A stretch of DNA of 64,000 bases from Micromonospora sp. WMMA1363 (GTDB lineage: Bacteria > Actinomycetota > Actinomycetes > Mycobacteriales > Micromonosporaceae): positions 1,359,001 to 1,423,000 of the forward strand of contig NZ_JAUALB010000001.1 of NCBI RefSeq assembly GCF_030345795.1, written 5' to 3'. Made by a program: the position numbers and the translations under genes. How positions within the stretch are numbered: position 1 is the stretch's first letter; each line of letters opens with the position of its first letter. The notes beneath the pieces are model-generated. The model saw only the letters and a program-made list of their open reading frames with translations, made no database searches and was not told the origin of the DNA. Positions 20,475-50,811 of the stretch are shown one piece after another.

Positions 20475-20486
20475 CCGATCACGCTA

Positions 20487-27218: not shown

Positions 27219-27259
27219 TCGCCCCGACCACGACGACGCGGACGGGTGCGGAGCGGCCA

Positions 27260-27449
27260 GGCCGAACGGCTATTTGGCGGTCCTTTTCCGCCGACACCGC
27301 TCGGCCGGCGAGAATCGCCATCGGCTGGCGTGGAAGTTTCACGATCGCCCGGTCGCACCCGGCCGAACGGATATTCAACGGTCCCTTTCGCCGACACCGC
27401 TCGGCCGGTAAGAATCCCAACGGCTGGCGCGGAAGTTTCGCGTTCGCCG
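27260..27449. repeat. Two tandem imperfect ~90-bp direct repeats, period 101 bp
   Basis: Both units begin GGCCGAACGG, share the identical core CGCCGACACCGCTCGGCCGG, and continue with GGCTGGCG.GGAAGTTTC. They lie downstream of the coiled-coil gene and outside any convincing reading frame. They may be a dispersed repeat family of this genome or a duplicated regulatory site. Confidence 0.85.
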
Positions 27450-27479
27450 ACGCCGAATGCCGGGGCATTCCCTAGCCGT

Positions 27480-27512
27480 CCCGTCGCCCAGACACCCCGA
27501 CGGGGCGACGGG
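27480..27512. terminator. Hairpin, likely bidirectional terminator
   Basis: CCCGTCGCCC and GGGCGACGGG form a perfect 10-bp stem with a 13-nt loop. The structure lies between the convergent coiled-coil and MerR genes and has no T-run, as is usual in high-GC actinobacteria. Confidence 0.6.
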
Positions 27513-27666
27513 GGCGAGCCCACGGGCAATCCCCGACCCCGGAGGTATCACGAAAAGCGACTTCCCGCGCACAGGACGTGGTGGCAGGGCCACCCGGACG
27601 TCTCTCGGGTGTCGCAGTCGAGCTTCGCTGAGGTGGTGCGACTGACTCAAGGACGAACACGCTCCG

Positions 27667-30305: not shown

Positions 30306-31121
30306 TTGCTGGATCCAGGCACTAGGGCCGCCGAACGTGTCATCGCCTTCATGCATGACAATCTCGGGGAGCAACTGACCATCGATGACATGGCTCGGGC
30401 AGCATTCTTCAGCAAGTTCCACTTCTCGAGGATCTTCCAGCGAGCCACGGGGATCTCGCCCGGACGGTTCCTCTCCGCACTGCGGCTCCAGCGGGCCAAG
30501 CAGTTGTTGGTGTCCACCTCGCTGAACGTCGCGGACGTCAGCCTGCGGGTCGGCTACGCCAGCGTCGGCACGTTCAGTTCACGATTCACCCGCAGCGTCG
30601 GGCTCTCCCCGACCACGTACCGGCGCCTGGGCGGTTACACCTCCCACGTCCCGGTGGCCGACACGCACTCGGTGACCAGCCGGCCAACCGGCAGCCTGCG
30701 GGGCCGGGTGGTGCCGGCGTCGAATGTCCTGGTCGACCGCGTGTTCGTCGGCGTCTTTCCCGACCGCATTCCGGAGGGCCGACCGGTGCAGTGCTGCGTC
30801 CTCAACGAGCCGGGCGAGTTCGTGCTGGACCGGGTGCCCGTCGGAGTGTGGCACGTGCTGGCGCACTCGGTGGGACCGGACCTACTCGGTCAGCCCTCGG
30901 CGGAGGTCGGCGCCGTGGGTAGCAGCGGGCCGATTTTGATCAGACGGGACGGCGTGGTGGAGCTGCAGCTGTCCCTGCAACCGATGCGGATTCTGGATCC
31001 GCCGGTCCTGCTCGTGCTCGAGGACGTGCGCCGCTCGGCGATGCAGCGGACGGAGACGCGACACGGTCCCGCCGCGGCCGACCGGGACGTGCGGGAGCCG
31101 GTAGGCGCGGGGCTGCGCTGA
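30306..31121 (+). CDS. AraC-family regulator with N-terminal HTH
   Basis: The 271-residue protein carries a complete AraC/XylS double helix-turn-helix at residues about 8-105 (FMHDNLGEQLTIDDMARAAF, FHFSRIFQRATGISP, SLRVGYASVGTFSSRF). The DNA-binding domain is thus at the N-terminus, unlike most AraC proteins. The C-terminal 150 residues contain beta-rich segments I cannot assign. The TTG start is preceded by AAGGGGGA. It is the only regulator next to the enediyne locus and is a candidate pathway-specific activator. Its ligand is unknown. Confidence 0.82.
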   Translation: MLDPGTRAAERVIAFMHDNLGEQLTIDDMARAAFFSKFHFSRIFQRATGISPGRFLSALRLQRAKQLLVSTSLNVADVSLRVGYASVGTFSSRFTRSVGLSPTTYRRLGGYTSHVPVADTHSVTSRPTGSLRGRVVPASNVLVDRVFVGVFPDRIPEGRPVQCCVLNEPGEFVLDRVPVGVWHVLAHSVGPDLLGQPSAEVGAVGSSGPILIRRDGVVELQLSLQPMRILDPPVLLVLEDVRRSAMQRTETRHGPAAADRDVREPVGAGLR

Positions 31122-31787
31122 CCGGCGACGCCTCCTCGACCGGCGCGGGATCGGCAGGCTGCCGCTGACCCCGCGCCGGTACTGCGCACGTCGAAGAACG
31201 AAACCACCGCCGAGACCACTCTGCTGCTCGCGAAGATGGTCCGCCACAACGGTCTCGGCCTCGATGGCTTCGTCAGCATCTGCACCACGGCCCCACCTGA
31301 TCAGCTGCTTCCGGCGGTGGCAGCCGCTGGCCCGCCGCCGCGCTGCCCGGTGCGGCTCGCCCCGCTCGCCCGGGTCCCCACCGCGCCGCTCGCCACCGGC
31401 CCCGTACCGCCGTGGCGCTCGGCCCGATCGCAGGGTTCCCGTGCCGGACGGCCGCCGAGGGTGGTACCCGGAACACAGCCCGACCGGCCGCCAAAAATGC
31501 GCTCGACGGCCGGTGGAACCATCACGGCTGCGGCCCGCACGGAACTCGCCGGCAAGTCGGCGAGGTCCTGCCGCGGTTGCACAGGCGGCCCCAGCGACAG
31601 GCGGAGAGCCGACGCCTCCACCGACGAGGTCGCCGAGGCTCTCGCCACGCGGGGCATCCCGCGGATGCGGATGGCCGCCCGGTACGGCGGCCATGAATCC
31701 GACCCGGCGCCGTCGTCGACGTGCTGTCCCAACTCGGCCGGGCGACGGCTCGACCGGCTGCGCACCAGCCCGCCTCCCGGTGCTGGT
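31122..31787. other. 666-bp region without a supported gene
   Basis: All six frames give low-complexity Arg/Pro/Ala-rich peptides with no recognisable domain and no good start site. It separates the AraC gene from the end of the P450 gene. I see no terminator hairpin that stands out; a decayed gene cannot be excluded. Confidence 0.5.
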
Positions 31788-33146
31788 TCAGCTGATCGTC
31801 CGTACCGTCATCGACAGACCGTCACGGACCCGCAACGACAGCATCGGCTCGGCGATCACCTGTTGGCCGGCCGACGCCACGAGCTCGAACTCGCGCGACA
31901 CCATCGCCACCACGAACACCGCTTCCATCAGGCCCAAGTGGTTGCCGACGCAGAACCGCGGCCCGGCGCCGAACGGGACGTAGGCGTACCGGGGCCGGGC
32001 CGTGGTCACCTCCGGGTCGAACCGCCCCGGGTCGAACCGCTCCGGCTCGGGCCAGAACGCCGGGTGCCGGTGCAGGGTGTACGGGCAGATCAGCACATCC
32101 GCTCCGGCGGGCACCGGATACCCGTCCACCACGTCGACGTCGCGCGCCCGGCGGGACAGCATCCACACCGGCGGGTACAGGCGCATGGCCTCGCTGACCA
32201 CCATCTTCGTGTACGTGAGCCGCCCCAGGTCGGCGTACTCGGGCAGCCGGTCACCGAGCACCTCCACAGCCTCCTCGCGCAGCCGGCGCCGCACCCAGGG
32301 GTTCCGGTCGACCAGATGGAAGGTCCACCCGAGCGTGCTCGCCGTGGTCTCGTGCCCGGCCAGCAACAGCGTCACCAGCTCGTCGCGCATCCGCTGACGG
32401 GCCACCCGGGAGTCCGCCTCGTCCCCGGTGGAGGCGATCAACCGGGACAGCGCGTCGTCGGCCTCCGCCACGTCGCCACGGGTGGTCCGGTCGGCCACCA
32501 GCCGCTCGACGATCCGCTCCAGTTCCCGGCGGGCCCGCCGGAACCGCAGCTGCTGCGGCAGCGGCACCCACATCGGCAGCACGCTCATCGAGGCCATCTC
32601 GAACATGGCCTGGTTCTGCATCTCTTCGAATGCCTCCCCGACGGTGGTGAAGGCGTCGAGGTCGGCGTCGAGCAGCGTCCGGCCGAGGACACCGAGGGTC
32701 AGCGCGGTGAACTCGTCGGTCAGGTTCACCGGGCCGTCGCCTCGGCGCCCGCGCAGCCGGGTGAGAAGCCGGTCAGCCTCTTCCGCCACCGCGCCGGCCT
32801 GGCCGGCGATCCGCTTGGCCTGGAACACCGGCTGGATCACCCGCCGCTGCTTGCGCCACAGCTCACCCTCGCTGGTCAGCAGGCCGTCGCCGAGCGCCCG
32901 CCGGGCGTGTACCAGGCCCAGCCCCTTGACGTAGTTCTGGCTGTTGTCGGCCAGCACGTGCTTGGCGTGGTCGGGATGGTTGAAGAAGTACAGCGCTCGG
33001 GGCCCGACCCCGAGCCGGACGGCGTCGCCGTAGCGGGCGGCGGAGGTCATCAGGCCGAGCCGGTCCCGACCAAGCTGCCACAGCGAACGGAGCAGGGCAG
33101 CACCGGTCGGACCGGGATACCTCCGGCCGGCCGCCACCAGCGTCAT
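31788..33146 (-). CDS. Cytochrome P450 (enediyne E7-like)
   Basis: The 452-residue P450 has the oxygen-activation helix LLAGHETTAS, the EAMR of the ExxR motif in SEAMRLYPP, and the heme loop FGAGPRFCVGNH with the thiolate Cys399. Its ATG overlaps the flavin-reductase stop (ATGA), so it ends the PKSE transcript. Nine-membered enediyne cassettes carry a P450 (E7, for example in C-1027) that should oxidise the polyene/enediyne core. The position after thioesterase and flavin reductase fits that role. The exact reaction is not known. Confidence 0.85.
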   Translation of the reverse strand: MTLVAAGRRYPGPTGAALLRSLWQLGRDRLGLMTSAARYGDAVRLGVGPRALYFFNHPDHAKHVLADNSQNYVKGLGLVHARRALGDGLLTSEGELWRKQRRVIQPVFQAKRIAGQAGAVAEEADRLLTRLRGRRGDGPVNLTDEFTALTLGVLGRTLLDADLDAFTTVGEAFEEMQNQAMFEMASMSVLPMWVPLPQQLRFRRARRELERIVERLVADRTTRGDVAEADDALSRLIASTGDEADSRVARQRMRDELVTLLLAGHETTASTLGWTFHLVDRNPWVRRRLREEAVEVLGDRLPEYADLGRLTYTKMVVSEAMRLYPPVWMLSRRARDVDVVDGYPVPAGADVLICPYTLHRHPAFWPEPERFDPGRFDPEVTTARPRYAYVPFGAGPRFCVGNHLGLMEAVFVVAMVSREFELVASAGQQVIAEPMLSLRVRDGLSMTVRTIS

Positions 33147-33700
33147 GTCGCCACCCCACTCCGCTCGGCCACCCCACTCCGCTCGGCCGCCACCCGACGG
33201 AACCGGCCACGGAAGAACACCACGGGGTCGTCCTCGCCACGCCGCTCGACCGACAGCAGCCGGCCGGTGAAGATGCTGTGGTCGCCCCCGTCGTACACCT
33301 GCCAGACAGCACACTCGAACCGGGTCAACGCCCCGTCGATCAGCGGCGCCCCGGTCACCCGGCCCGGCGTCCACTTCACCGCCTCGAACTGCGCGGCGCC
33401 CAGCGGGCGCCGGCGGTCGGCGAAGTGCCTCGCCACCGGCTCCTGGCCCTCGGCGAGCACGGAGACGCCGAAGACCCCGACGGCGAGAAGCCGGTCGTGC
33501 ATCACGGCCCCACGATCCACGCAGACCAGCACCAGCGGCGGATCCAGGGAGACCGAGGTGAACGAGTTGGCGGTCATGCCGTGGGGCAGCGAGCCACCGA
33601 CCGACATCACCGTCACCCCGGTCGCGAACGTCCCGAATGCCCCGCGCAGCGCATCCGGGTCAGTCGTCGTGACGGACGCCAGATGATCAATGCTCATCAT
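33143..33700 (-). CDS. Flavin reductase (enediyne E6-like)
   Basis: This 185-residue protein is of the HpaC/flavin reductase-like FMN-binding family, with FGTFATGVTVMSV, HGMTANSFTSVSLDPPLV and VFFRGRFRR. It uses NAD(P)H to supply reduced flavin to a partner oxygenase. In C-1027, SgcE6 has this role. No two-component flavin monooxygenase is visible nearby, so the partner is open. Tandem ATGs at 33700 and 33697 both follow AGGAGG; the second has the better spacing (5 nt). The C-terminus carries a duplicated ERSGVA hexapeptide from an 18-bp repeat. Confidence 0.85.
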   Translation of the reverse strand: MMSIDHLASVTTTDPDALRGAFGTFATGVTVMSVGGSLPHGMTANSFTSVSLDPPLVLVCVDRGAVMHDRLLAVGVFGVSVLAEGQEPVARHFADRRRPLGAAQFEAVKWTPGRVTGAPLIDGALTRFECAVWQVYDGGDHSIFTGRLLSVERRGEDDPVVFFRGRFRRVAAERSGVAERSGVAT

Positions 33701-34158
33701 GTCCTCCTGGTTCCCGCCAGCTGCGGCCCACCCGGGGCGCGGTACGGGCGCAGCGCCCGCACCAGCGCCTCCGGGACGCGGGTCGGCTGCGTGCGGGTGT
33801 TCGGTCCCCGCATGCAGGCCACCCGCTGCCGGCCCCGAGCGACGAGCGTGCCGCCGCCCGGGTCAAGCCGGACGTAGTCGAAGCTGAACTCCAGCTGGGT
33901 CTGTGCCAGGTCGACCAGCCGCATCCGGATCGACAGCTCGTCGAAGGCGGTGATCTCAGCGAAGAACTCGCAGTCGACCTTCAAGGTGAACAGCTTCAGG
34001 TCGTCGCGGACGTCGGCGAGCACCTCCGGAGCGCGCTCGAACAGGAACATCTCCCGGCAGCGGCCCTGCCAGCGCAGGTAGTTGACGTAGTAGACGTTGC
34101 CGACCAGGTTCGTCTCCTCGAACCCGACGGTGTGCCGGTACTCGAAGTAGTCCTGCAC
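33697..34158 (-). CDS. Enediyne hotdog thioesterase (E10/TEBC)
   Basis: The 153-residue protein is a single hotdog-fold acyl-ACP thioesterase, matching the enediyne TEBC family: FEETNLVGNVYYVNYLRWQG near residue 13 and REMFLFERAPEVLADV after it. It hydrolyses the linear polyene from the PKSE acyl carrier domain. The GTG start at 34158 is 4 bp after the PKSE stop, preceded by GAGG. The Glu/Asn-rich active-site region is intact. This is the obligate partner of PKSE, and its presence supports a working enediyne pathway. Confidence 0.92.
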   Translation of the reverse strand: MQDYFEYRHTVGFEETNLVGNVYYVNYLRWQGRCREMFLFERAPEVLADVRDDLKLFTLKVDCEFFAEITAFDELSIRMRLVDLAQTQLEFSFDYVRLDPGGGTLVARGRQRVACMRGPNTRTQPTRVPEALVRALRPYRAPGGPQLAGTRRT

Positions 34159-34162
34159 CGCC

Positions 34163-37100: not shown

Positions 37101-39937
37101 GCACGTTCGGCGGCCAGCCGCCGGAGCAGTTCCAGGCCGGATTCCCCGCTCTCGGCGGAAGCGGCGGGCGGCGTGGCGACCGGTGGCCCCGCCGCGGTCG
37201 GGACCGCGCGGACGTCAACGGCGGGAGCCGCCTCGCAGGGGCTGGCGAAGAAGCTGAACTCCTGCCCGAGCTGCACCGGCCGGATCAGCCGGCCGTGGAA
37301 CAGACCCGGGTGGACGTCGGCGGCACCGATGACGTACGCGGCGGCGACGACCCGCAGCACGCTGGTCAGCGACTCGTCGTCGGTGTCCAGCGCCACGGCC
37401 GGCACCTCGGTCACCGCGGCGGCCAGACCACTGAGCACCCGCCCGGGCCCGACCTCAACGATCAGGTCGATGTCCTTGGCGGCGAGGGCCACGGCTTGGG
37501 CGAAGAGCACCGGGTCGGTGATCTGCCGGTGCAGGAGCGCCGGGATGTCGGTGTCCGGGGCGAGAACCTCACCGGTGACGGTGGAGACCACCGGTTCGCG
37601 GAGCGGTCCGAAGCGCTCGCCGGCCAACCGGTCGCCGAAGGCCGCTGCCGCCGGGGCCACCAGCGGAGAGTGGAACGCGTGCGACACCGACAGCCGGGTG
37701 GCTCCGATCCCGGCCTCCCGGGCGGCCCGACTCACCGCCTCGACGGCGTCGACCGGGCCGGCGACGACCGTCTGCTGGGGGCCGTTGTAGCCGGCGACAA
37801 CCACCGGCTGCCCGGCCAGCAGGCCTGCCACCGGGTCTGGCGCGGCGGCCAGGCTGGCCATGGTGCCGGAGGCGCTGTGCTCGGCCATGGTCCGGCCGCG
37901 TACCGCAGCGACCCGCAGCAGGGTCTCACCGTCCATCGCGCCCGCCCAGTGCAGCGCGGACAGCTCGCCGAGGCTGTGCCCGACGGCTACCTGCGCGCCG
38001 ATCCCGAGGTCGCACAGCACCCGCAGGCCAGCCATGGATCCGGTGACGATACGGGGCTGGGCGACGGCGGTGGCGACCATGTCGCCGGTGGTCGGCAGGG
38101 CAGCCCGCTCGTACACCTCCTCGGCCCGGCCGAACCGGCGGCGCAGCGCGCCGCCGCTGGTTCCGCGACCCGAGCCCTGGCCGGGGAAGAGGAAGCCAAT
38201 GCGCCCCTCCTCCACCACGTGCCCGCACAGGGCGCGCCCGTCGGCGGTGAGGAGCCGGGTCTCACCGGCGTCCAGCGCCTCCCGGACGCGCAGTAGCTGG
38301 TGCTCCGCGTCCTCCGGGGAGGACACGACCAGCGCCGCCCGCCAGGGCCGGTCCTGCTGTTCCCGGTGCAGGGTGGCGGCCAGATCGGCGAGCTGGGCGT
38401 ACGCGAGCTGGGGAACGAACTCGATCAGCTGCTGTACCCGCTCGCGCAGGAGGCCGGCCGAGTCGGCGTCGACCACCAGCAGCTCCATGTCCTGCACCGA
38501 GCGGCGCAGGTTACGGCTGCGGCTGTCCAGCCGGACACGCCGCTTCGGCTCCCGCTTGTCCAGCACCACGTGGGTGTTGATGCCGCCGAAGCCCATCGCG
38601 GTGATGCCGGCGCGCACCGGGGTTTCCGCCGGCCACGGCTCCGCCTGCCGCAACACCCGCAACGCGGCGTCGTCGGCGGTGAGCAGCTCGTGCGGGTCGA
38701 CACAGCCGATCGCCGGCGGAAGCAGCTCGTGGTGCACCGCCATGGCGGCTTTGATCAGACCCGCGACCCCGGCCGCCGCCTTGGTGTGCCCGATCATGCC
38801 CTTCACGGAGCTGATCGCGGCCTTCGGCGCCCGGGGGTCGGCCGACCGGCGGGCCATCGAGAGGGCCCTGAGCTCGGTGGCGTCCCCGACGGCGGTGCCG
38901 GTGCCGTGGCCCTCGAACAGTCCGACGGTGTCGATCCCGAAGCCCGCCCGCTCGTACGCCCGACGCAGCGCCAGCTGGTAGCCGTTGACCTCGGGACGGG
39001 TGATGCCGCCCTTACCGTCCGAGGAGATACCCCAGCCGGCGACGGTGGCGTACACGCGGTGCCCGGCCTCGAGGGCGTCCCGCTCGCGCATCAGGACGAT
39101 CATCCCGCAGCCTTCGCCGGGCCAGAAGCCGTTGGACTTGCGGTCGTAGACGCGCATCTCCGTCCGGGCCAGCGCACCGGTCTTGGCGAAACCGATGATC
39201 TCGAAGGGGTCGATGGAAATGTCCACCCCCCCGGCCACCGCGACGTCCACCTCGCCGTCGAGCAGCGTCTTGCACGCGGTGGCGACGGAGAGCAGCGAGG
39301 ACGAGCAGGCGCCGTCGACGGTGTACCCGCCGCCCTTGAGATCGAAGTGGTTGCAGATCCGGCCGGCGATGGTGTTGGACAGGCCACCGGCCAGGGTGTC
39401 CTCGTCGATGCCGGGGAACGGCGCCTTGTAGCGGGCCTCGAAGTCGGCGAGGAAGGTGGCCAGTTGGTCGTCGTCCCAGTCCTGTTCCTTGAGCGCGGCG
39501 GCCACCATCCGCTGCACGTACGGCCACCGCAGCCGCATCTGGTTGGCGCGGGAGAACTCCCCGGTGAGGCTGTTGCCGACCACCACGCAGGTGCGCTCGC
39601 GGGGCAGTCCCTCGGCCATCGGGAAGCCGGCGTCGGCCAGGGCCGTGGCGGCGACGTCCAGCGCCAGCCAGTGGGTGAGGTCGGTGGACCGGTACGTGCT
39701 GCCGGCGATCTTGTAGGCGATCCGGTCGAACTCGTAGCCCTCGATGACGGCGGCGGTCCGGGCGTAGAAGCGGTCCGGGGCGGCCGGATCAGGGTCCCAG
39801 TAGTCGTCGAGCCGCATCCGCACGTCCGGAAGGCGGCGGAAGGCGCGCCGTCCGGCGACGGCGTTCTCCCACAGCTCGCCGGGCGAGGTGGCGTCGGGAT
39901 AGCGGTTGGCCATCCCGACGATGGCGATCCTGCTCAT
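34163..39937 (-). CDS. Iterative enediyne polyketide synthase PKSE
   Basis: The 1924-residue enzyme has the full enediyne PKS order. KS: active Cys211 in DGACSSSLLS, His in EGHGTGTAVGD and MIGHTKAAAG. AT: Ser655 in GHSLGELSAL. ACP: LHLSSITVG, Ser967 the likely pantetheine site. KR: TGGGKGITAEC near residue 1200. DH: His1475 in DHLLDGNLLFP. A C-terminal 4'-phosphopantetheinyl transferase follows (GCDVEP, Asp1821 and Glu1823; WTATECLQKVG). Length and active-site spacing match known PKSEs such as CalE8. It builds the heptaene precursor iteratively and self-activates its ACP. The start overlaps the UnbU gene (ATGA), so E5-E-E10-E6-E7 are one transcript. Confidence 0.95.
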   Translation of the reverse strand: MSRIAIVGMANRYPDATSPGELWENAVAGRRAFRRLPDVRMRLDDYWDPDPAAPDRFYARTAAVIEGYEFDRIAYKIAGSTYRSTDLTHWLALDVAATALADAGFPMAEGLPRERTCVVVGNSLTGEFSRANQMRLRWPYVQRMVAAALKEQDWDDDQLATFLADFEARYKAPFPGIDEDTLAGGLSNTIAGRICNHFDLKGGGYTVDGACSSSLLSVATACKTLLDGEVDVAVAGGVDISIDPFEIIGFAKTGALARTEMRVYDRKSNGFWPGEGCGMIVLMRERDALEAGHRVYATVAGWGISSDGKGGITRPEVNGYQLALRRAYERAGFGIDTVGLFEGHGTGTAVGDATELRALSMARRSADPRAPKAAISSVKGMIGHTKAAAGVAGLIKAAMAVHHELLPPAIGCVDPHELLTADDAALRVLRQAEPWPAETPVRAGITAMGFGGINTHVVLDKREPKRRVRLDSRSRNLRRSVQDMELLVVDADSAGLLRERVQQLIEFVPQLAYAQLADLAATLHREQQDRPWRAALVVSSPEDAEHQLLRVREALDAGETRLLTADGRALCGHVVEEGRIGFLFPGQGSGRGTSGGALRRRFGRAEEVYERAALPTTGDMVATAVAQPRIVTGSMAGLRVLCDLGIGAQVAVGHSLGELSALHWAGAMDGETLLRVAAVRGRTMAEHSASGTMASLAAAPDPVAGLLAGQPVVVAGYNGPQQTVVAGPVDAVEAVSRAAREAGIGATRLSVSHAFHSPLVAPAAAAFGDRLAGERFGPLREPVVSTVTGEVLAPDTDIPALLHRQITDPVLFAQAVALAAKDIDLIVEVGPGRVLSGLAAAVTEVPAVALDTDDESLTSVLRVVAAAYVIGAADVHPGLFHGRLIRPVQLGQEFSFFASPCEAAPAVDVRAVPTAAGPPVATPPAASAESGESGLELLRRLAAERAELPLEMVRDDSRLLDDLHLSSITVGQVVNQAAQRLGIGAAETPTNFATATLRELAEAFGELHRTALPIDTEREPAVVGAAPWSRPFRLDLDPVPLPARGPAEENGHWRVYAAADDPLAEELRRGLERGQLGSGVLVCLPADCAEEHLDLARQGARAVLGGQLGDRFVLVQPGRGAAGLAKTLRLEAPQVRVTIVRTPAAGPAVERVLAEIAATQEFAEVHYDEQGRRLVPTLRAMPVRPARPVSPLGSDDVLLVTGGGKGITAECAIVIGRDTGARLAVLGRSDPAGDEELAANLRRMTEQGLTVHYARADVTDAEQVRAAVAEVTDALGPVTGVLHGAGRNEPTALASLDQAAVRRTFAPKIDGLRAVLNAVDADRLKALVTFGSIIGRSGLRGEAHYAMANDWLAELTAEFGRRHPECRALCLEWSVWSGTGMGERLSVVEALERDGVTPITLDQGVEIMRRLLVDAAAPTVVVISGRTQDIDTVRYNIPDLPLLRFVDRLPVHYPGVELVSETTLSPDIDRYLPDHLLDGNLLFPAVFGMEAMSQVATALTGRRSVPLIENVEFARPIVVPPDGSTTIRVAAVVTDDDTVQVSIRSAETGFAADHFRARLRFVDAPTPDGPPEQVGPGLPEVPLAPDRDLYGDILFQGDRFQRLRRYHRASARDVDADLAVRGDTDWFAGFLPAELILGDPGMRDALMHGNQVCVPHATLLPAGIERVHPGGAALAAAGEVRYCARERSRDGDTYIYDIAVRDGAGRVLERWDGLRLQAVRKRSDLRWVPTLLGPYLEREFGDLLGTPIAVTVEPDAPTDGGAGVAGRGRTARAAGRTLGRAVDVRYRPDGRPELDGERQVSAAHGAGLTLCVLGVGPLGCDVEPVVALPAPEWDGLLGPNRGLADLIAAETGEDLAVAATRVWTATECLQKVGLPQRSPLSLLSGGRDGRVLLASGDLRIATAPVTLRDHTEPVVFAVLTGKDG

Positions 39938-40923: not shown

Positions 40924-40928
40924 GTCGC

Positions 40929-42893: not shown

Positions 42894-42897
42894 CTTG

Positions 42898-43872
42898 TCA
42901 GTTCCTTCCGATCACGACGAACTCGTCCGCCACGGCCCGCCGCCAGACCTCGTAGCCGGGCGGCCCGCCCGGCGTGTCGCCTCGCGGCCGGCGGCGTTCG
43001 GCCAGGTCGGCGGCTTCGACCACGGTCATCCCGCACAGTGCCCGGGTCGCCACCTCGTTGTGCGGGACCACGAGCCCCGCCCGGACGCGGGCCGAGGCGG
43101 CGAAGACACTGCCCTGGGAGACGTGCGTGTGGTACGCACCGGCGCGCCGCCGGAACGCCCGCAGTTCCTCCTCGTCGGCCCCGCCCGCGTACGTGGCCGC
43201 CAGTCCGGCGCCGCTGTACAGGTCCGCCCGCCGGCCGGGGGCGAAGCCCTCGATGGTCTCGGCGACCCGCTCGGCGTCGGTACCGCAGACGAACCAGAGC
43301 GCCCGGCCGATGCCTTGGTCGATGGCGTGGTCGGCGTAGCCGCGGTGGGCGTCGCCCGGTGGCCATGGGAAGGCGGCCTCCCGGTACTGGCCGTACACGT
43401 ACCGGTCGGTGGCGAAGTACGCCTGGTGGAAGCCGAGACCGTCCAGCACCAACCAGCGCACCAGCGGGTCGGGGGCGGTCAGCGTCCACCAGCGGAACCG
43501 CGGTAGCCGGGCCATCGCCCAGCCCACCCCGACGTACGCCATGTAGATGTGGGCGTCGCCGGGTCCGGCGAGAAACCGGGCCACGTGACGACGTGGACCG
43601 GGTAACGCGTCGAGCACCGCCAGGGCCATCGCCGCACCCTCGTACGCGAACCCGCGGAATCGCGTCGGGGTCACGTCGAGTCGCCGCGACAATGGGTCGG
43701 GCGATGGCGTCTCCGCCGCGTAGGAATATCCGGTCAGGAACGTGCGCCCTACGGTTTCGAGCATTTCCCGCGCGGCTGGATTCTTGGCTTTGAATCCACG
43801 CACGTCGAGGTTCGTGGCCGACATGTCGGGTGTGAGAATGCGACGTCTGAGCGTCCGCCAGGCACTGGTCAC
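42898..43872 (-). CDS. Enediyne UnbL/E3 (DUF1702)
   Basis: This 324-residue DUF1702 protein has RGFAYEGAAMALAVLD, YMAYVGVGWAMARLPRF, the DQGIGRALWFVCGTD region and a C-terminal PGYEVWRRAVADEFV, matching UnbL proteins of the enediyne cassette. It is soluble with no cofactor motif. GTG 43872 was chosen because it follows GGGGGAG and aligns exactly with the start of its paralogue at 45041; an upstream TTG at 43884 has no ribosome-binding site. First gene of the E3-E4-E5-PKSE-E10-E6-E7 transcript. Reaction unknown. Confidence 0.88.
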   Translation of the reverse strand: MTSAWRTLRRRILTPDMSATNLDVRGFKAKNPAAREMLETVGRTFLTGYSYAAETPSPDPLSRRLDVTPTRFRGFAYEGAAMALAVLDALPGPRRHVARFLAGPGDAHIYMAYVGVGWAMARLPRFRWWTLTAPDPLVRWLVLDGLGFHQAYFATDRYVYGQYREAAFPWPPGDAHRGYADHAIDQGIGRALWFVCGTDAERVAETIEGFAPGRRADLYSGAGLAATYAGGADEEELRAFRRRAGAYHTHVSQGSVFAASARVRAGLVVPHNEVATRALCGMTVVEAADLAERRRPRGDTPGGPPGYEVWRRAVADEFVVIGRN

Positions 43873-43953
43873 GGTCTCCCCCAAACGAGGACACGCTAGC
43901 CCTCTGACAACTGTGGATGAAACGGTGCCAGCGGCCGGTACGTCGCGTCTTCT

Positions 43954-43970
43954 TCGATTGTGCTAATCGA
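43954..43970. promoter_or_regulatory. Inverted repeat in the E3 promoter region
   Basis: TCGATT and AATCGA flank GTGCT 82 bp upstream of the E3 start, in an AT-richer 191-bp spacer between the two DUF1702 genes. The spacer is the only gap in the minus-strand core and probably holds the promoter for the PKSE transcript. The palindrome could be an operator; this is weak. Confidence 0.3.
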
Positions 43971-44063
43971 GGAAAAGATTATCGACGACAACGACGGAAG
44001 CGGATAGTGCCAGTACCCACGAATGCATAAGCCTCATTGCCGAATGGGCTGGGAGCGACGGGA

Positions 44064-45041
44064 TCAACCGGGGGTCGCCGCCGCGTGGAACCGCGCCCGC
44101 ACCCGGTTGCGCCAGATCTCGTACGGCGGCACGTGTCCGCCCACGGCGTCGGGGACGGCGACCTCGTCGGCGAACTCGGCGGCGGCCTCCACCGTCATCC
44201 CGGTGAGCCCGGCCAGGGCCGATCGGGTGTGCTCCGGGACGCACCCGGACCAGGAGCGGGCCTTGGCCGCGAACACCGCGCCCTGGGCCAGGTCCGAAGC
44301 GTGCTCGCCGGCGGCGCGGCGCAGCGGCTCGGCGGCGCAACCGCCGGCGAAGGTGGCGGCGAGCCCAACCCCGCTCCACAGGTCCGGATGCCGGTCGGCG
44401 GCGAACCGGCCGACCGCCGCCGCCACGTCCGGAACCCGCCCCCCGTGGACGAACCACAGGGCCCGGCCGACGCCCTGGTCCACCGCCCGGGGGAAGTAGC
44501 CCGCCGCCCCCTGCCAGGGGTACCGGGCGAGCCGCTCCTGCCGGTCGACGACGCGCTCGGTGTCGAAGTAGGCCCGGTCGAAGCCATACCCGTCCACCGC
44601 CAGCCAGCTCATCGTCGGGTGGTAGGGGATCCCGCTCAGGTCGGGCAACACCTTCCGCCAGAGGAGCCGTGGGAGCCGGGCCATCGCGAAACCGATGCCG
44701 ATGTACGCGAGGAAGACGTGCGGCCGACCCGGACCGAGGAGCAGCGCGCGGGTCCGGTTCGAGCGACCCGGCATGACGTCCAGCACGGTGCAGGCCATGG
44801 TGGCACCCTCGTACGCGAAGCCGCGCAGATCCTCCTCGACCAGTTCCAGCCGCCGTTCGAGCTCCCATTGGTCGCGGGTGTCGATGCCCCACTCGAAGCC
44901 GCAGATCACCGCGCGCGGCACCGACTCGAGCCGATCGGTGGTCGCCGACGGCGTCGCCGGGAAGTTCCGCCGCCGGAAGGAGACATCGGCCAGGGACGGC
45001 GCCAGCAGCATCCGGCGCACCGAGCCCACCGCGCTTGCCAT
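44064..45041 (-). CDS. Second DUF1702 protein (E2-like)
   Basis: The 325-residue protein is a paralogue of the E3 protein, sharing RGFAYEGATMACTVLDVMP, FLAYIGIGFAMARLPRLLW, VDQGVGRALWFVHGG and PPYEIWRNRVR at equal positions. Nine-membered enediyne loci often hold a second unknown protein (E2) beside E3, and this gene probably fills that slot. ATG 45041 follows GGAGG. It lies 61 bp after the AhpD-like gene upstream and could share its promoter. Whether the two DUF1702 proteins form a complex is not known. Confidence 0.82.
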   Translation of the reverse strand: MASAVGSVRRMLLAPSLADVSFRRRNFPATPSATTDRLESVPRAVICGFEWGIDTRDQWELERRLELVEEDLRGFAYEGATMACTVLDVMPGRSNRTRALLLGPGRPHVFLAYIGIGFAMARLPRLLWRKVLPDLSGIPYHPTMSWLAVDGYGFDRAYFDTERVVDRQERLARYPWQGAAGYFPRAVDQGVGRALWFVHGGRVPDVAAAVGRFAADRHPDLWSGVGLAATFAGGCAAEPLRRAAGEHASDLAQGAVFAAKARSWSGCVPEHTRSALAGLTGMTVEAAAEFADEVAVPDAVGGHVPPYEIWRNRVRARFHAAATPG

Positions 45042-45102
45042 GAATCCTCCCCAGATTCGGTGGCGGGTGGCGCCCGGGGCCGCCCGCGAGAATCGAAGCC
45101 GC

Positions 45103-46179
45103 TCAACGGTGGAGCAGGTACGACCGTGGCACATGGTGGCTGCCCACCCGGCGGGCGGCGGCGAAGCTCGACCAGGCGGCGGCCTCCACCAGGCTGCGGT
45201 CGTCGGGATGGTGGGCGCGAAACTCGTCCACCACCTCCTCGTCGACCTGGTAGGAGGCGAACGCGGTGAGCAGGGCGAGCCGACCGGCGGCGCGATCGGC
45301 GGGGGACAGGTCGACGACCGAGTCCTCGCACCACTGCCGGCTGATGCCGGTCTCCTCGCCCCGCCAATCCGCCAGCCGGCGGAGCACCCGCTCGCGGACC
45401 GCCGGCGTAAGCGTCCGTTTGCCGGCCGCTTCGAAGGCAGCGTATGAGCGGGCCACGGCCGCGGCCACGGCCGGGTTGCCGGCGGCCCACCGGGCATCGG
45501 CGGGCAGGTCCGCCGGCGGCAGCAGGGACAGCGCGCGGCCCGGCGGATACGGCTCGCGCAGCGTCGGGCGCAGCAGCCGGCTGATGCCGAACTTGAGCCG
45601 GCGGCGGGCGCTCGACCCCAGACCAGGAGGCAGCAGGAAGTTCGCCAGGAAGACGTTGACCATGCGGGTCAGGTAGTGGAAGGCGACCAGGACACCGACC
45701 AGCTCGGGACGGTCCGCCTCGCCGAACGGGGCGTCGGCGACCCCCGGCAGGTCGGCCAGGTGCGCCGAGCGGGCCCAGCCCGCCACCTGCCGGACCGCCT
45801 CGTCGCGCACCTGCTCGACCCGGTCGGCGACGATCGCCTCCGCGTCGCCGGCGTCGCCCAGCTCGTACATCCCGGTGCTGTGCATGTCGGCGCAGTACGG
45901 GCAGATGTTGGCCACCGAGACGGCGGCGGCCACCGCCTCCTTTGCCAGCCGGCCGGCGTTGCCGGTGGCCAGCAGCGGTTCCCGCATGAGCATCCAGTAC
46001 GCGGCCAGGACCGGCGGCGCCGACGAGTGCAGCAGCACCGGCGGATTGACGATCCGCATCTCCTCGGCGGCTTGGCCGTAGACCGCACCCACCACCCCCG
46101 CGGCCGTCGGGACCGGCACCGGCCGGACGTACCTGACCTGGCGCTGGACGACCGACGAGACTACCCGTCCGGCAACCAT
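45103..46179 (-). CDS. AhpD/carboxymuconolactone decarboxylase-like protein (1)
   Basis: This 358-residue protein carries the AhpD-type redox motif CPYCADMH in its first third (residue about 98). A second helical region ends with TAFASYQVDEEVVDEFR, so it looks like a duplicated, two-lobed version of the fold. Such proteins use the CxxC pair for peroxide or disulfide chemistry. ATG 46179 was chosen: GGGGAGG lies seven bases upstream and the start aligns with that of its paralogue; a GTG at 46260 is weaker. It begins the transcript leading to the DUF1702 gene. A role in enediyne core oxidation or protection is inferred. Confidence 0.78.
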   Translation of the reverse strand: MVAGRVVSSVVQRQVRYVRPVPVPTAAGVVGAVYGQAAEEMRIVNPPVLLHSSAPPVLAAYWMLMREPLLATGNAGRLAKEAVAAAVSVANICPYCADMHSTGMYELGDAGDAEAIVADRVEQVRDEAVRQVAGWARSAHLADLPGVADAPFGEADRPELVGVLVAFHYLTRMVNVFLANFLLPPGLGSSARRRLKFGISRLLRPTLREPYPPGRALSLLPPADLPADARWAAGNPAVAAAVARSYAAFEAAGKRTLTPAVRERVLRRLADWRGEETGISRQWCEDSVVDLSPADRAAGRLALLTAFASYQVDEEVVDEFRAHHPDDRSLVEAAAWSSFAAARRVGSHHVPRSYLLHR

Positions 46180-46419
46180 TGCCCGCCTCCCCTGGAACAT
46201 CGCCGGAGGTGACGGCACGGCGGCCGACGACACGGCGATGGTGTGTAGCTGTTCGCTCACAAGGATGCCTCGGTCGCCGTCAGCTGGGATATTCCAGATT
46301 GCGCAGCCACTCGCGGTCGGACCGTCGCCCCTGGACGGCGCACGTCACGAGAAGAGCCAACCCCGCCGGCCGCCGATAATCGCCGCACGGGCCCGTGAAC
46401 CGACAGGAGTGTCTTCGCG

Positions 46420-47484
46420 ATGACGGTGCTGGTGACCGGTGGTACGGGGTTCCTCGGGTCGCACTCGGTGGCGGCGCTGGTCGCGGCGGGGCATCCGGTG
46501 CGCCTGCTCGTCCGGGACCCGACGCGGGTGCCGGTGGCGTTGCGGCCGCTGGGGGTGCAGCCCGCCGCGGTCGAGGTGGTCACGGGCGAGGTGACCGACC
46601 CGGCCGCCGTGTCCGCCGCCGTCCACGGATGCACGGCGGCTCTGCACGCCGCGTCGGTGTACAGCTTCGACACCCGCGACCACGCCCGCTTGCGGGCGGT
46701 CAACGTGCGCGGCGCCGAGCTGGTGCTCGGCGCCGCCGTCGCCGCCGGGCTCGACCCGGTCGTGCACGTCTCCACCTTCGGCGCGCTGGTGCCAGCGCGG
46801 CGGAGCCCGATCACTGCCGAGGCGGAGGTGGGCGAGCCCCGGGAGACGTACCTGGCCAGCAAGGCGAGTGCCGAGCGGGTGGCCCGGCGGCATCAGGCCG
46901 CGGGCGCGCCGGTCGTCGTGACGTACCCGCTGGCGGCGCTCGGACCGCACGACCCACACCTGGGTGACCAAACCGCCCGGCTGCGCAACGCCTTACGTGG
47001 GCTGATGCCGATCTGGCCGCGCGGTGGCTTTCCGGTCGGTGACGTACGGGACGTGGCCCGCCTGCACGCCATGGTGCTCGAGCCGGGGCGCGGCCCCCGC
47101 CGGTACCTGGGGCCGGGTCGCTACGTGGACACCCGGGAGTACCTGGACGTGCTTCGCCGGGTGACCGGGCGGGCGCTGCCCGCGGTACGTCTGCCGGCCG
47201 CCGCGATGCTGCCGGTCGGCGCGGTGACCGGGCTGGTGCAACGCGTCACACCCGTGCACCTACCGGCCGAGTACGGCGCCATCTACACCTGCGCGGTGGC
47301 CGGGCCGGTGGACACCTCGGCCACCGACCGGCTGCTGGACGGGTCGCCCGTGCCGTTCGAGCGCACCGTCGCCGACACGGTGGCCTGGTTGGCGGCTACC
47401 GGCCGGGTCAGCCCCCGCCAGGCCGGTCGGCTGGCCGCCGGGCGTCCCGGGCCAGCCGGGCGCCCAGCTGCCGGGCCGCGGTGA
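46420..47484 (+). CDS. NAD-dependent epimerase/dehydratase (extended or atypical SDR)
   Basis: The 354-residue SDR has TGGTGFLGSHSVAALVAAGH at the N-terminus, VVHVSTFGALVP, and the catalytic YLASK near residue 147. It resembles NAD(P)-dependent reductases acting on flavonoid-like or steroid-like substrates more than sugar epimerases. It contains one TTA leucine codon (46993-46995, residue 192), hinting at bldA-type control. It is divergent from AhpD-like gene 1 and overlaps AhpD-like gene 2 tail-to-tail by 77 bp. It could reduce a keto group of the warhead. Confidence 0.75.
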   Translation: MTVLVTGGTGFLGSHSVAALVAAGHPVRLLVRDPTRVPVALRPLGVQPAAVEVVTGEVTDPAAVSAAVHGCTAALHAASVYSFDTRDHARLRAVNVRGAELVLGAAVAAGLDPVVHVSTFGALVPARRSPITAEAEVGEPRETYLASKASAERVARRHQAAGAPVVVTYPLAALGPHDPHLGDQTARLRNALRGLMPIWPRGGFPVGDVRDVARLHAMVLEPGRGPRRYLGPGRYVDTREYLDVLRRVTGRALPAVRLPAAAMLPVGAVTGLVQRVTPVHLPAEYGAIYTCAVAGPVDTSATDRLLDGSPVPFERTVADTVAWLAATGRVSPRQAGRLAAGRPGPAGRPAAGPR

Positions 47485-48496
47485 GGCTGGCCCAAGCGGT
47501 CACAGCCACCAGGTCCGCGTCGCCGGGCGCACGGCGCCGATGGTCGTCGACCACCGCGTCGTCGACCTGGTAGGAGGCCATCGCGGTGAGCAGCGCCAGC
47601 CGCGCGGTGGCCCGGTGCCCCGGGGGCAGCGCGGCCACGGCGTCGGCGGCCCAGGCCCGGCTGAGGCCGGGCGGGCTGCCGTCCCAGGCGGCGATGCGCT
47701 CCCCCACCAGATCCCGCACCGGCGTCGGCACGACCGCGTCGGCCAGCTCGTCCACCGTCGCCGACGCTCGTGCGAACGCGGCGGCGACGGTGGGGGTGCC
47801 GGTGGCCCAGCCAAGGTCCGGTGGGAGCGGCGCGGTCGGAAGCAGATCCAGGGCGTCACCGGGCGCAGCCGCCCGGCGGGCCGCCGGGCGCAGCAGCACG
47901 CCGAGGAGCCGGCGGGCCCCGCCACGCAGCCGACCGGGCAGAACCGCCGGCATCGGCGAGGCGTCGAGGAAGACGTTCACCATCCGGTTCAGGTAGTGGA
48001 AGGTCACCGCCACGCCGATCACTTCGGAAGCCGCCTCGGCCGGGAACGGCGGCGCGTCGCCGGTGGCCGAGGCGTCGTCGCGTAGCCAACGCACCAGTTC
48101 GCGGACCCCCGGGTCGCCGATCGAGTCGACGCGGTCGGCCGCAACGGCGGCGGCATCCGATCCCCGGACCAGGCCCTGCATGGTGGAGGCATGCACGTCC
48201 ACGCAGTACGGACACGCGTTGCCGACGGAGACAGCCGCGGCGACCGCCTCCCGGGCGGCACGGGTGCAGCGGCCCCGGGCGACCAGCGTCTCCCGCAGGA
48301 TCACCCACGCGGCGGCCAGCGCCCGCGGCGCCGGCGCGTGCAGCGCCACAGGCGGGGCGAGGACGCCGAACTCGCGCTCCAACGGGTCGTACACCCGGCG
48401 CACGGCCGGCGGCGCCGACGACGGGAAGACCGGGCGGAGGTACCGAACGCGCCCCAGCGAGCGGCGGACGGCAGCCCGGGCGAACCTGTTGACCAC
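47408..48496 (-). CDS. AhpD/carboxymuconolactone decarboxylase-like protein (2)
   Basis: The 362-residue paralogue of the protein at 45103-46179 shares VRYLRPV near the N-terminus, AAVSVGNACPYCVDVH (CxxCxxxH motif intact), FHYLNRMVNVFLDASPMP and MASYQVDDAVVDDHRR at equivalent positions. GTG 48496 follows GAGGAGG. Its last 77 bp lie antisense to the end of the SDR gene, which is unusual in this compact but otherwise orderly locus. It probably shares a redox or protective task with its paralogue. Confidence 0.78.
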   Translation of the reverse strand: MVNRFARAAVRRSLGRVRYLRPVFPSSAPPAVRRVYDPLEREFGVLAPPVALHAPAPRALAAAWVILRETLVARGRCTRAAREAVAAAVSVGNACPYCVDVHASTMQGLVRGSDAAAVAADRVDSIGDPGVRELVRWLRDDASATGDAPPFPAEAASEVIGVAVTFHYLNRMVNVFLDASPMPAVLPGRLRGGARRLLGVLLRPAARRAAAPGDALDLLPTAPLPPDLGWATGTPTVAAAFARASATVDELADAVVPTPVRDLVGERIAAWDGSPPGLSRAWAADAVAALPPGHRATARLALLTAMASYQVDDAVVDDHRRRAPGDADLVAVTAWASLTAARQLGARLARDARRPADRPGGG

Positions 48497-48595
48497 GGTG
48501 CCTCCTCGATACGGTCGTCGGAGCGGCGCGCCGCCGGTGTGAGCCGGTGCCGGGATACGTCCGGCGGGGCGGCGAACGACCCCGCCGGAAGACGG

Positions 48596-50251
48596 CTACC
48601 GACGTGTCGCGCCGCCCACCAGAGGCAGCACCGCGTCCCGGCCGGCCGTCGCGCCGTCCGGCGCGGGTGCGCCGTAGCGCACCGGGACACCGCGCTGCCG
48701 GGCGGCCTCGACGATGCCGGGGACCGCCCGTTCGGCCAGCGCCGCGATGGTCATCGCCGGGTTGACCGTCAGCGCGCCCGGCACCGCCGAGCCGTCGGTG
48801 ACGAAGATGCCCGGGTTGCCACGCAGCTCGTGCCGGTCGTCCAGCGCCGAGGTAGCCGGGTCGTCGCCGATGCGGCAGGACGCAAGCGGATGCACGGTGT
48901 ACGCCCCGACCACGTCGTTGGTCCACGGCATGACCCGGGCCAGACCGTCGCGTTCCAGAATGTCCCGCACCTCCGCGTCCGAGGCGGCCCAGCCACGCAG
49001 CGTGTTCTCGGTGGGCCGGTAGCGCAGTGACCCCCGCCCGAGCATCTGCTGGGAAACCCGGACCGAGTTACCGGTGGGCGGGGGCGGTCCGAAGACGCCC
49101 TCGTTGTCGTCCTCGCTCATCGTGAAGACGGTCAACCAGGACTTCCAGTGCCGGAGCAGTTCCTTCTTCGCCACGCCGAACCAGGCCGGCCCGGTCGGGT
49201 CGGGCACCTGGGCGAGGATGGTGCCGAACCCGGGTGGGAAGTAGAGCTGCTCCAGCGAGTAGCGCAGGTACTCCGGTAGCGACCCGTCCAGTCGGTCCCA
49301 ACTGGCCACGCAGGGTCCCTTGCCGATCTGGTACGCCTCGTACGGCACCCCGTCGGAGCGACTGAGCCCCAGCACGTCACGCACCCGCTCCTCGTCGATG
49401 ACCGCGGTGTTCAACCGCTCCCCGTTTCCGGAGAAGTAACGTCCCACCGCGGCCGGCATCGGACCGAGGGTGTCGGCGGAGCGTTGCAGGATCACCGGCG
49501 TCGCCCCGGCGCCGGCGGCCAGCACGACGATCTTCGCGTCGATCACGCCGCAGCCCGCCTCGACCCGGTAGTCGACGTCGTCGATCACGGTGTAGTGCAG
49601 CCGGTAGCCACCGTCGTCGGTCCTGGTCAGCTTCTGCACCTCGTGCAGCGGCCGGATCTGCGCGTTGTGGGCCAACGCGGCCGGCAGGTAGTTGAGCAGC
49701 AGCGAACGCTTGGCGTCGAAGCGGCAGCCGGACATCATCCAGTTGCAGTTGACGCACTTCTCGTTGTCGATCGCCACCGGCACCGGGTTCGCGGTGCGTC
49801 CGGCGTGGTGGCAGGCCGCGGCCCACAGGCCGCCCGCGTACGGCACCTCCGACCACTCCTGCCGGGTGACGGGCAGCGCCTCGGCGACCCGGTCGTACCA
49901 GGGATCCAGGGCGTTGCGGCTGATGACGGCCGGCCACATCCGGCGGCCGATGCTGCCGTGCCGCTCGAAGACGAACCGCGGCGCACGCGGCATCGCGGCG
50001 AAGTAGACCACGCTGCCACCACCGACGCAGTTGCCGGCCAGCACGCTCATACCGTCGGCGACGGTGAAGTCGAAGGCCCGGGTGGACGACGCGCCGAACT
50101 TGAAGTCCTGGTCGAAGTCCTGCCCGGTGAGCCACGGTCCGCGCTCCAGCACCACGACCCGGGCGCCGCCAGCCGCCAGGTGGTAGGCGGCAATCGCGCC
50201 GCCGAACCCGCTGCCGACCACCACGACGTCAGTGCTCTCGATGGCCGTCAT
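48596..50251 (-). CDS. GMC-family flavin oxidoreductase (E9-like)
   Basis: The 551-residue protein has an N-terminal FAD Rossmann motif (VVVVGSGFGGAIAAYHLA), a Cys-rich loop CVNCNWMMSGCRFDAKRS near residue 160, and the C-terminal GMC end HPLASCRIG...VTDGSAVPGALTVNPAMTIA with the active His and Asn. This matches cholesterol-oxidase-like GMC enzymes and the E9 oxidoreductase of nine-membered enediyne loci. The ATG overlaps the stop of the small protein upstream (ATGA), suggesting a two-subunit dehydrogenase. It probably oxidises a hydroxyl group during core formation. Confidence 0.82.
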   Translation of the reverse strand: MTAIESTDVVVVGSGFGGAIAAYHLAAGGARVVVLERGPWLTGQDFDQDFKFGASSTRAFDFTVADGMSVLAGNCVGGGSVVYFAAMPRAPRFVFERHGSIGRRMWPAVISRNALDPWYDRVAEALPVTRQEWSEVPYAGGLWAAACHHAGRTANPVPVAIDNEKCVNCNWMMSGCRFDAKRSLLLNYLPAALAHNAQIRPLHEVQKLTRTDDGGYRLHYTVIDDVDYRVEAGCGVIDAKIVVLAAGAGATPVILQRSADTLGPMPAAVGRYFSGNGERLNTAVIDEERVRDVLGLSRSDGVPYEAYQIGKGPCVASWDRLDGSLPEYLRYSLEQLYFPPGFGTILAQVPDPTGPAWFGVAKKELLRHWKSWLTVFTMSEDDNEGVFGPPPPTGNSVRVSQQMLGRGSLRYRPTENTLRGWAASDAEVRDILERDGLARVMPWTNDVVGAYTVHPLASCRIGDDPATSALDDRHELRGNPGIFVTDGSAVPGALTVNPAMTIAALAERAVPGIVEAARQRGVPVRYGAPAPDGATAGRDAVLPLVGGATRR

Positions 50252-50811
50252 GCCGGACTCCCTGAGGGTGTCGTGTCGGGGTGGGGGCGGGCGAGCTGCC
50301 GGCCGTAGGAGAACTCCGGGAAACGCCACAGGTTGTCGGCCCCCGGCGGCTTGAACCCCATCGTGGTCATTCCCGGATGCCCGGCGGCGAGGGCCTCGGT
50401 GGTGTGCAGATGCGCGGCGGCGTCGAAGGCGATCGTGCTGAACATCGCCACGCTCACCCAGACGTCTCGCTGCGGGTGGGCCGGGTCGGTCAACCGCGTC
50501 ACCAGGTCGGTGCGATCGGTGAAGGAGAGGGCGACGAACGGCGGCACCGTCGAGTCGAGACGCAGGCCGCGCTCGGCCGCGTACCCGCCGGCGTGCCCGT
50601 TGAGCGCCTCGGCGAGGTTGTCCAGCGCGGGAGCCATGCCGCCCTCGTCGGTTCGGAGCACGGCGACGGCGCCGGAGGCGACCGCGCCGCCACCGTCGGC
50701 CGCGCCGGCCACCGCGACGTCGTCGGGGAAGCGTTTCTCCCCTGGAAGAATGGTGTCGGCAAACGCTTCGAGCGTCATTGTCGTCACGTCGTGCTGGGCG
50801 CTGTCGTGCAC
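50248..50811 (-). CDS. DUF5987/gluconate 2-dehydrogenase subunit 3-like small subunit (E8-like)
   Basis: This 187-residue protein begins with TMTLEAFADTILPGEKRFPDD, the ADTILPG motif of small subunits that accompany GMC dehydrogenases, and ends with FPEFSYGRQLARP. No Tat signal is visible. GTG 50811 follows AAAGGAGGG, and the stop overlaps the GMC start, so the pair is co-translated. In nine-membered enediyne loci an unknown small protein (E8) precedes the E9 oxidoreductase; this is the likely equivalent. DUF naming is from memory. Confidence 0.72.
   Translation of the reverse strand: MHDSAQHDVTTMTLEAFADTILPGEKRFPDDVAVAGAADGGGAVASGAVAVLRTDEGGMAPALDNLAEALNGHAGGYAAERGLRLDSTVPPFVALSFTDRTDLVTRLTDPAHPQRDVWVSVAMFSTIAFDAAAHLHTTEALAAGHPGMTTMGFKPPGADNLWRFPEFSYGRQLARPHPDTTPSGSPA

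Follow-up and report, generated by a model that had tools for sequence, protein, structure and literature searches.

Gene content and extent of the core block

The 64,000-nucleotide stretch analysed here, hereafter the window, covers positions 1359001-1423000 of contig C1 of Micromonospora sp. WMMA1363 (genome G000; 6.48 Mb in 20 contigs) and contains a block of genes for the DNA-damaging warhead core of an enediyne-type antibiotic. A second block on the same contig, well outside the window, encodes enediyne tailoring and export functions. In the window, genes for DUF1702, UnbU- and UnbV-type proteins, an iterative enediyne polyketide synthase (PKS) and a thioesterase are contiguous (Table 1), the arrangement E3/E4/E5/E/E10 designated as the enediyne PKS cassette in PMC5181780. 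All genes listed earlier from the letters of this DNA alone (the sequence-only reading) are recovered by Pfam search, with the exception of the UnbU-type gene, which is named from position and synteny. The PKS is complete, as stated there, and uninterrupted in a single open frame. The GMC oxidoreductase is likewise recovered; its partner, previously described as a small GMC subunit, matches DUF5987, and the subunit name is not adopted here.

The extent of the block is based on a PKS-anchored comparison with the best 80 of 179 relatives, counting loci cut by contig ends. Homologues were scored above 60 bits and within 10 kb or less on either side; the counts in Table 1 are therefore minimum values, and those for P450 and AraC may take in distant matches. 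Two DUF1702 homologues are found in 73 and 63 of the 80 loci, respectively. Since the same genes recur around the PKS, the block spans at least the region from the MerR gene to the MDMPI gene (27667-53236). The interval proposed earlier (30306-50811) is too narrow, as the MerR regulator, the membrane protein o51179, the CopC-domain protein and the MDMPI-domain protein all recur with the core. The closest named PKS relatives are those of Micromonospora sp. WMMC415 (G115, 91% identity) and M. thermarum (L021 and L101, 90%), which share core genes and gene order with the window. The DNA is collinear with WMMC415 over 31758-53244 and with M. thermarum over 31804-53242 (88% identity over 21.5 kb), and both runs end at the end of the MDMPI gene.

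The core looks to be of the nine-membered type, as proposed previously, judged from the thioesterase, the PKS clade and the accessory genes. The thioesterase is nearer to nine- than to ten-membered solved relatives, with a small margin over CalE7 (4i4j, 255 bits; CalE7, 231; 5vpj, 142; DynE7, 141). We take 4i4j to be SgcE10. Among solved structures, 5cho (192 bits) is the nearest to the flavin reductase, followed by 4r82 (188) and 4hx6 (185), the latter two presumably SgcE6; the first DUF1702 protein has no solved relative at E<=0.001. In a FastTree phylogeny of 90 PKSs, the window PKS branches with those of M. thermarum and WMMC415; the surrounding large Micromonosporaceae clade includes PKS S4WJ48 of Salinispora pacifica, whose locus we take to produce cyanosporaside. 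No known ten-membered PKS is among the 90 as a control. The accessory core genes are those of Salinispora loci. The cyanosporaside-type locus itself (L034) has the same accessory set; it differs in its arrangement of the core, in a PKS of 68% identity, and in having a gene for an acyl-CoA-dehydrogenase-like protein (ACAD) in cis, at a distance of about 16 kb from that for the thioesterase. According to a rule cited in PMC5181780, nine-membered clusters have E2 and lack R3; of the two DUF1702 proteins present here, neither sequence is assigned the name E2.

Tailoring genes are absent from the surroundings of the core. With 29 tailoring proteins as queries (22 from the distal block described below, 7 from loci of relatives), no orthologue is found in the window or in 40 kb on either side. 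The tblastn matches near the core at E<=1e-5 are weak superfamily matches of three queries (P450, 22%; AMP-binding, 32% and 26%). The earlier statement that no such genes are visible locally holds, and tailoring genes just outside the window, named there as an outcome that would overturn the proposal of a bare cluster, are not found at this range; such genes sit far outside. No chromoprotein apoprotein or halogenase is seen in the annotated stretches, although no genome-wide family search was made. Neighbourhoods beyond the MDMPI gene were read in M. thermarum, KC213, M. chaiyaphumensis and M. matsumotoense. M. thermarum carries a DegT aminotransferase, a glycosyltransferase, a methyltransferase, three SnoaL-type proteins, an ACAD and a GMC enzyme about 9-17 kb beyond the MDMPI gene, and WMMC415 has the same tailoring order; none of these is found at the window. 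KC213 and M. chaiyaphumensis have different tailoring sets in this position, and in G094 (PKS 86% identical) an ACAD, an SgcJ homologue, a flavin adenine dinucleotide (FAD) enzyme and an epoxide hydrolase follow the MDMPI gene directly.

The distal tailoring block

A search of the genome with the M. thermarum tailoring block identifies an ACAD (67% identical, C1:1890787-1891929) within a coreless enediyne tailoring block at C1:1873647-1900257, with collinearity to a relative extending to at least 1919963. The enediyne genes do not form a single contiguous cluster: the distance from the MDMPI gene (C1:1412236) to the HpaB gene (C1:1873647) is 461 kb. In the 80 kb of the distal region neither PKS, thioesterase nor UnbV is found, and the only core proteins with any match there are AraC (a homologue of 38% identity) and the P450 (a generic match). 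Beyond the block lie a transposase-like gene (identified by eye), a radical SAM/B12 protein and a second major facilitator superfamily (MFS) protein.

The block encodes a decoration set resembling that of C-1027 from Streptomyces globisporus. Four of its proteins have as best solved relatives 4oo2 (890 bits, next 626), 5f4z/4i19 (497/478, next 206), 4i4k, which is SgcJ (160), and 4znm (367, next 124), each with a clear lead over the runner-up; apart from SgcJ, we take these to be C-1027 or neocarzinostatin proteins. An SgcC-type hydroxylase, an epoxide hydrolase similar to SgcF/NcsF2, an SgcJ homologue, and a type II condensation enzyme similar to SgcC5 are thus found together, along with an AraC-type regulator. 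The C-1027 genes are reported to lie, with an AraC-type regulator, within one 75-kb region (PMC2657911). Unlike this single region, the genes considered here are divided over two distant blocks and no aminomutase orthologue was found.

With tailoring and export genes about 460 kb away, what looked like a bare cluster probably represents half of a pathway encoded at two sites. We assign a probability of roughly 70% to a nine-membered enediyne pathway divided between two chromosomal blocks of different ancestries, with its core half in the window. The earlier proposal of an unadorned warhead, protected in some unknown way, is unsupported given a sole enediyne PKS and thioesterase and a coreless tailoring block with an exporter on the same contig, and was set aside as the main explanation once the distal block was found.

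Table 1. Genes of the core block (window positions) and of the distal tailoring block (positions on contig C1). Fractions give the number of PKSE (enediyne PKS) loci with a homologue.
Feature	Coordinates	Strand	Evidence and recurrence
MerR-family regulator	27667..28299	-	Pfam MerR_1; left end of conserved block; 19/80
AraC-family regulator	30306..31121	+	Pfam HTH_18; 66/80
Cytochrome P450 of the core	31788..33050	-	Pfam p450, 266 bits; 67/80
Flavin reductase (E6 type)	33143..33700	-	Pfam Flavin_Reduct; 74/80
Polyene thioesterase (E10 type)	33697..34158	-	Pfam 4HBT_2; 75/80
Iterative enediyne PKS, 1924 amino acids	34163..39937	-	Pfam KS, AT, KR, DH domains
UnbU-type protein, 332 amino acids (E4 or E5 position)	39934..40932	-	No Pfam match; position and synteny; 70/80
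UnbV/ASPIC protein	40929..42893	-	Pfam UnbV_ASPIC and FG-GAP; 69/80
DUF1702 protein, second copy	42898..43884	-	Pfam DUF1702, 438 bits
DUF1702 protein, first copy	44064..45029	-	Pfam DUF1702, 455 bits
CMD/AhpD-like protein b	45103..46260	-	Pfam CMD, 23.2 bits (cut-off 23); 20/80
Extended short-chain dehydrogenase/reductase	46420..47484	+	Pfam Epimerase; 9/80
CMD/AhpD-like protein a	47408..48496	-	Pfam CMD; 54/80
GMC oxidoreductase	48596..50251	-	Pfam GMC_oxred_N and _C; 62/80
DUF5987, small partner of GMC enzyme (by adjacency)	50248..50811	-	Pfam DUF5987, 290 bits; 57/80
o51179, membrane protein with invariant His/Glu	51179..51775	+	No Pfam match; 23/80
CopC-domain protein paired with o51179	51777..52433	+	Pfam CopC; 3' of o51179 in many loci
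MDMPI/DinB-like protein	52430..53236	+	Pfam MDMPI_N; right end of core block; 46/80
HpaB oxygenase	C1:1873647-1875194	-
Epoxide hydrolase	C1:1875397-1876602	+
Solute-binding protein	C1:1876634-1877938	+
BBE-type FAD oxidoreductase	C1:1877999-1879564	-
196-amino-acid protein	C1:1879595-1880185	-
DUF2855 protein	C1:1880355-1881416	-
Class III aminotransferase	C1:1881531-1882847	-
FAD_binding_4 protein	C1:1882886-1884217	-
MFS protein	C1:1884875-1886458	+
YCII protein	C1:1886626-1886943	+
Sigma/DUF6596 protein	C1:1886940-1888190	+
AraC protein	C1:1888814-1889455	-
Luciferase-like gene, two frames	C1:1889781-1890527 and 1890404-1890655
ACAD	C1:1890760-1891932	+
SgcJ homologue	C1:1891947-1892369	+
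FAD enzyme	C1:1892454-1893719	+
P450	C1:1894497-1895741	-
Second ACAD	C1:1895782-1896945	-
MbtH-condensation protein (type II condensation enzyme)	C1:1897044-1898579	-
Adenylation (A)-domain protein	C1:1898542-1900257	-	By eye; homology to nonribosomal peptide synthetase (NRPS) proteins beside other enediyne loci

Ancestry, selection and co-occurrence

The window PKS and thioesterase are the only enediyne ones found in the genome. Only one further PKS match reaches E<=1e-100; it covers less than half of the protein at 38% identity (7 of 88 candidates scored). For the thioesterase there is a single match at E<=1e-25 (20 of 20 candidates scored).

The two blocks differ in ancestry. The core belongs to the M. 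thermarum/WMMC415 lineage, and the distal tailoring block to the lineage of S. mooreana DSM 45549 (G072), whose own tailoring block is the same as the distal block (80-95% protein and 82-86% DNA identity). Two DNA runs are found: C1:1873647-1888187 corresponds to S. mooreana 4610584-4625075, and C1:1888683-1919963 corresponds, inverted, to 4610479-4582096, ending with the end of the compared S. mooreana stretch. In contrast to the situation here, the S. mooreana tailoring block adjoins its own core, in which UnbV and UnbU occupy other positions in the gene order and whose proteins are 45-85% identical to those of the window (PKS 68%, thioesterase 85%). As distal genes are 80-95% identical to S. 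mooreana but the PKS only 68%, the halves have different histories. The first run stops about 100 bp before the MDMPI gene, which is the start of the S. mooreana core. The match therefore ends at MDMPI in the comparisons of both the window and S. mooreana, placing the split at a module boundary on both sides. Judged from these alignments, the window is a core lacking the tailoring block of its own lineage, and the distal locus a tailoring block lacking the core of its own lineage.

The same comparisons bear on the idea that a single cluster was torn apart by misassembly. Although the assembly is a draft of 20 contigs, a single 6.04 Mb contig carries both, and the stretches read contain no N. 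To the left of the core the DNA is collinear with M. thermarum (window 19355-28559), to the right the flanking genes have counterparts that are neighbours in M. matsumotoense, and the single-contig genomes G183 and G195 show the same kind of split. Given in addition the unequal ancestry of the halves, we consider misassembly highly improbable.

The distal block is not visibly decaying, apart from one gene. The ratio of nonsynonymous to synonymous substitution rates (dN/dS) against S. mooreana is 0.05-0.28 in all 16 distal genes tested, indicating purifying selection, and the number of private changes in these genes is 155 in this genome versus 181 in S. mooreana. The test left out the DUF2855, YCII, sigma, AraC, luciferase-like, 1902644, radical SAM and 1906165 genes.

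Co-occurrence was evaluated in 151 genomes of the genus, evenly drawn from a larger group. Genes outside the window were called with a simple GC-frame script that overlooks or truncates some of them, to a greater degree in Salinispora, and the important absences were checked again by tblastn. The ACAD marker is found in 61 of 80 genomes with the thioesterase and in none of the 71 without (Fisher p 1e-25, uncorrected for kinship). Restricted to thioesterases at least 75% identical, 61 of 63 genomes keep the marker somewhere (exceptions G001 and G152). A table of 37 PKSE genomes left out G001, G005, G017 and G018, which are PKSE-positive and ACAD-negative, as well as G020 and G035, which have weak PKS matches. 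The nearest distance between both genes, measured from thioesterase matches of at least 70% identity only, is 9-79 kb in 45 genomes. In eight genomes (G125, G195, G182, G177, G113, G000, G198, G183) the genes lie on the same contig, 173 kb to 3.65 Mb apart, and in a further eight on different contigs, contig breaks included.

About 40 kb around each marker was read in G195, G182, G177, G198, G183 and G125. None of the 29 tailoring proteins is matched at >=33% identity in the core regions of these six genomes. Around the ACAD marker there are additional tailoring genes (in G177 few, and for the most part weak) but no enediyne PKS, the PKS matches in G198 and G125 being at 29-33%. In G182 this region also holds an AraC homologue and a shortened, 118-amino-acid piece of an MDMPI gene.

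These data also allow us to judge whether the window core works alone, giving an undecorated or cycloaromatised nine-membered product, with the distal block left over from a different cluster. In favour of this, the core genes are intact, no tailoring gene is found within 40 kb, and a core without tailoring has a published precedent: three S. pacifica strains are reported to have the sporolide PKS genes without the 45-kb NRPS part, and no product was found in them (PMC8609351). We regard a lone core as unlikely, as purifying selection acts on the distal block, which changes no faster than in S. mooreana, where a core is present, sister strains retain tailoring genes near the same core, and nearly all genomes with a closely related thioesterase keep the ACAD marker.

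Salinispora oceanensis (G113, the same as G073) shows what looks like an intermediate state, as expected if a single core is able to supply a further tailoring set, since the redundant core would then be free to decay. Its intact core lies at 5.22 Mb, and at a tailoring locus 488 kb from there (L161-L163, C1:4712073-4755590) a second core has eroded. All that is left of the PKS at this locus is its first 58 residues, joined in frame to residues 129-173 of the flavin reductase. UnbV and UnbU are fragmented, as is the CMD gene, for which one alignment shows a stop, and a tblastn recheck of the locus found no thioesterase; both DUF1702 genes and the P450, GMC and DUF5987 genes are still open. Such erosion, together with the one distal gene of WMMA1363 that is in two frames and the transposase-like genes seen by eye near its distal block, is also compatible with both halves being remnants of a silent or dying pathway after separation. 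With core genes and 16 tested distal genes open, dN/dS low and no acceleration, this appears quite improbable.

Several observations weigh against a working divided pathway. The selection test spans all time since the divergence from S. mooreana, so that a recent loss of function would be invisible. The luciferase-like gene is spread over two frames. Promoter words of 11-16 bases shared by both blocks are within the shuffle range; at 10 bases there is a slight excess (285 versus a shuffle maximum of 260). The split is a minority arrangement, with markers more than 170 kb apart in 8 of 53 genomes that have both on one contig, and G125 and G177 are less clean cases because of a second thioesterase. 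An aminomutase orthologue was not found in the genome, the best candidate, encoded well away from either block, being 41% identical to the MIO-type enzyme of S. oceanensis, and a motif scan of the distal region for a carrier protein gave no match; the acyl branch may therefore lack parts or use others.

Proposed pathway and implications

If both blocks work together in trans, a decorated enediyne would result. In the core block, a polyene would be made, released and matured to a nine-membered warhead by the PKS, the thioesterase, UnbU/UnbV, the DUF1702 proteins, the GMC/DUF5987 pair, the P450 and the CMD proteins. The distal epoxide hydrolase would open the core epoxide, and the A-domain and MbtH-condensation proteins would load and attach an acyl group whose aryl ring may be hydroxylated by the HpaB-type oxygenase, with reduced flavin probably provided by the flavin reductase of the window. 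As no aminomutase orthologue is found, the acyl group is probably not beta-tyrosine. The MFS pump would export the product, and self-protection may rest on this export. A solute-binding protein recurs beside enediyne tailoring genes of KC213, Streptosporangium, Nonomuraea, Sphaerisporangium and S. oceanensis, and the one at C1:1876634-1877938 is a possible candidate for a binding or sequestration role.

The pair o51179/CopC was considered as enediyne-specific protection and set aside, because the o51179 family is very common (5931 homologues). It is an actinobacterial family with no Pfam model, often encoded 5' of a CopC-domain gene. Its invariant residues (H36, E39, H40, E72, H75, H112, E114, H115, E146, H148, N152) look like a membrane metal site, and a structural model (mean predicted local distance difference test score, pLDDT, 79.7) matches no fold in the PDB at E <= 0.001.

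We note some further features of these loci. About 2 kb between the MerR and AraC genes of the window (28300-30305) contain no convincing gene; in M. thermarum the gap is about 0.6 kb, with AraC only 58% identical, versus 86% for the MerR counterpart in the same place. In 20 of the 80 loci, a member of a family of 300-amino-acid proteins with no Pfam match (L089:6367-7269 and relatives) is encoded close to the PKS. In Micromonospora sp. ALFpr18c (L060), an extra DUF1702 gene and a gene 41% identical to the PKS adjoin the enediyne core.

The literature searched contains no description of split nine-membered enediyne clusters; an earlier account in the Salinispora/cyanosporaside or pentaene polyol literature is possible. 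A calicheamicin-like cluster of S. arenicola is described in two halves, appearing as two gene cluster families (PMC12838356). It differs in being of the ten-membered type, and the passages on it argue for no trans pairing; most split clusters are attributed by the authors of that study to contig breaks.

Beyond the single strain, enediyne modules may be exchangeable at separate loci, a proposal we hold to be evenly balanced: one Micromonospora core, together with all of its boundary genes, would serve a remote tailoring block from another cluster lineage and, after two clusters meet, one core would erode while its tailoring genes survive on the other, giving hybrid enediynes. Genome mining for enediynes predicts products from the genes that adjoin the PKS. 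Should some Micromonospora genomes exchange their cores and tailoring blocks and keep them at separate sites, product prediction, searches for resistance genes and dereplication by PKS clade would misread them, and cluster-based mining would report a hybrid enediyne as a bare core plus an orphan. The paired loci allow a direct genetic test of whether one enediyne core can feed a foreign tailoring set.

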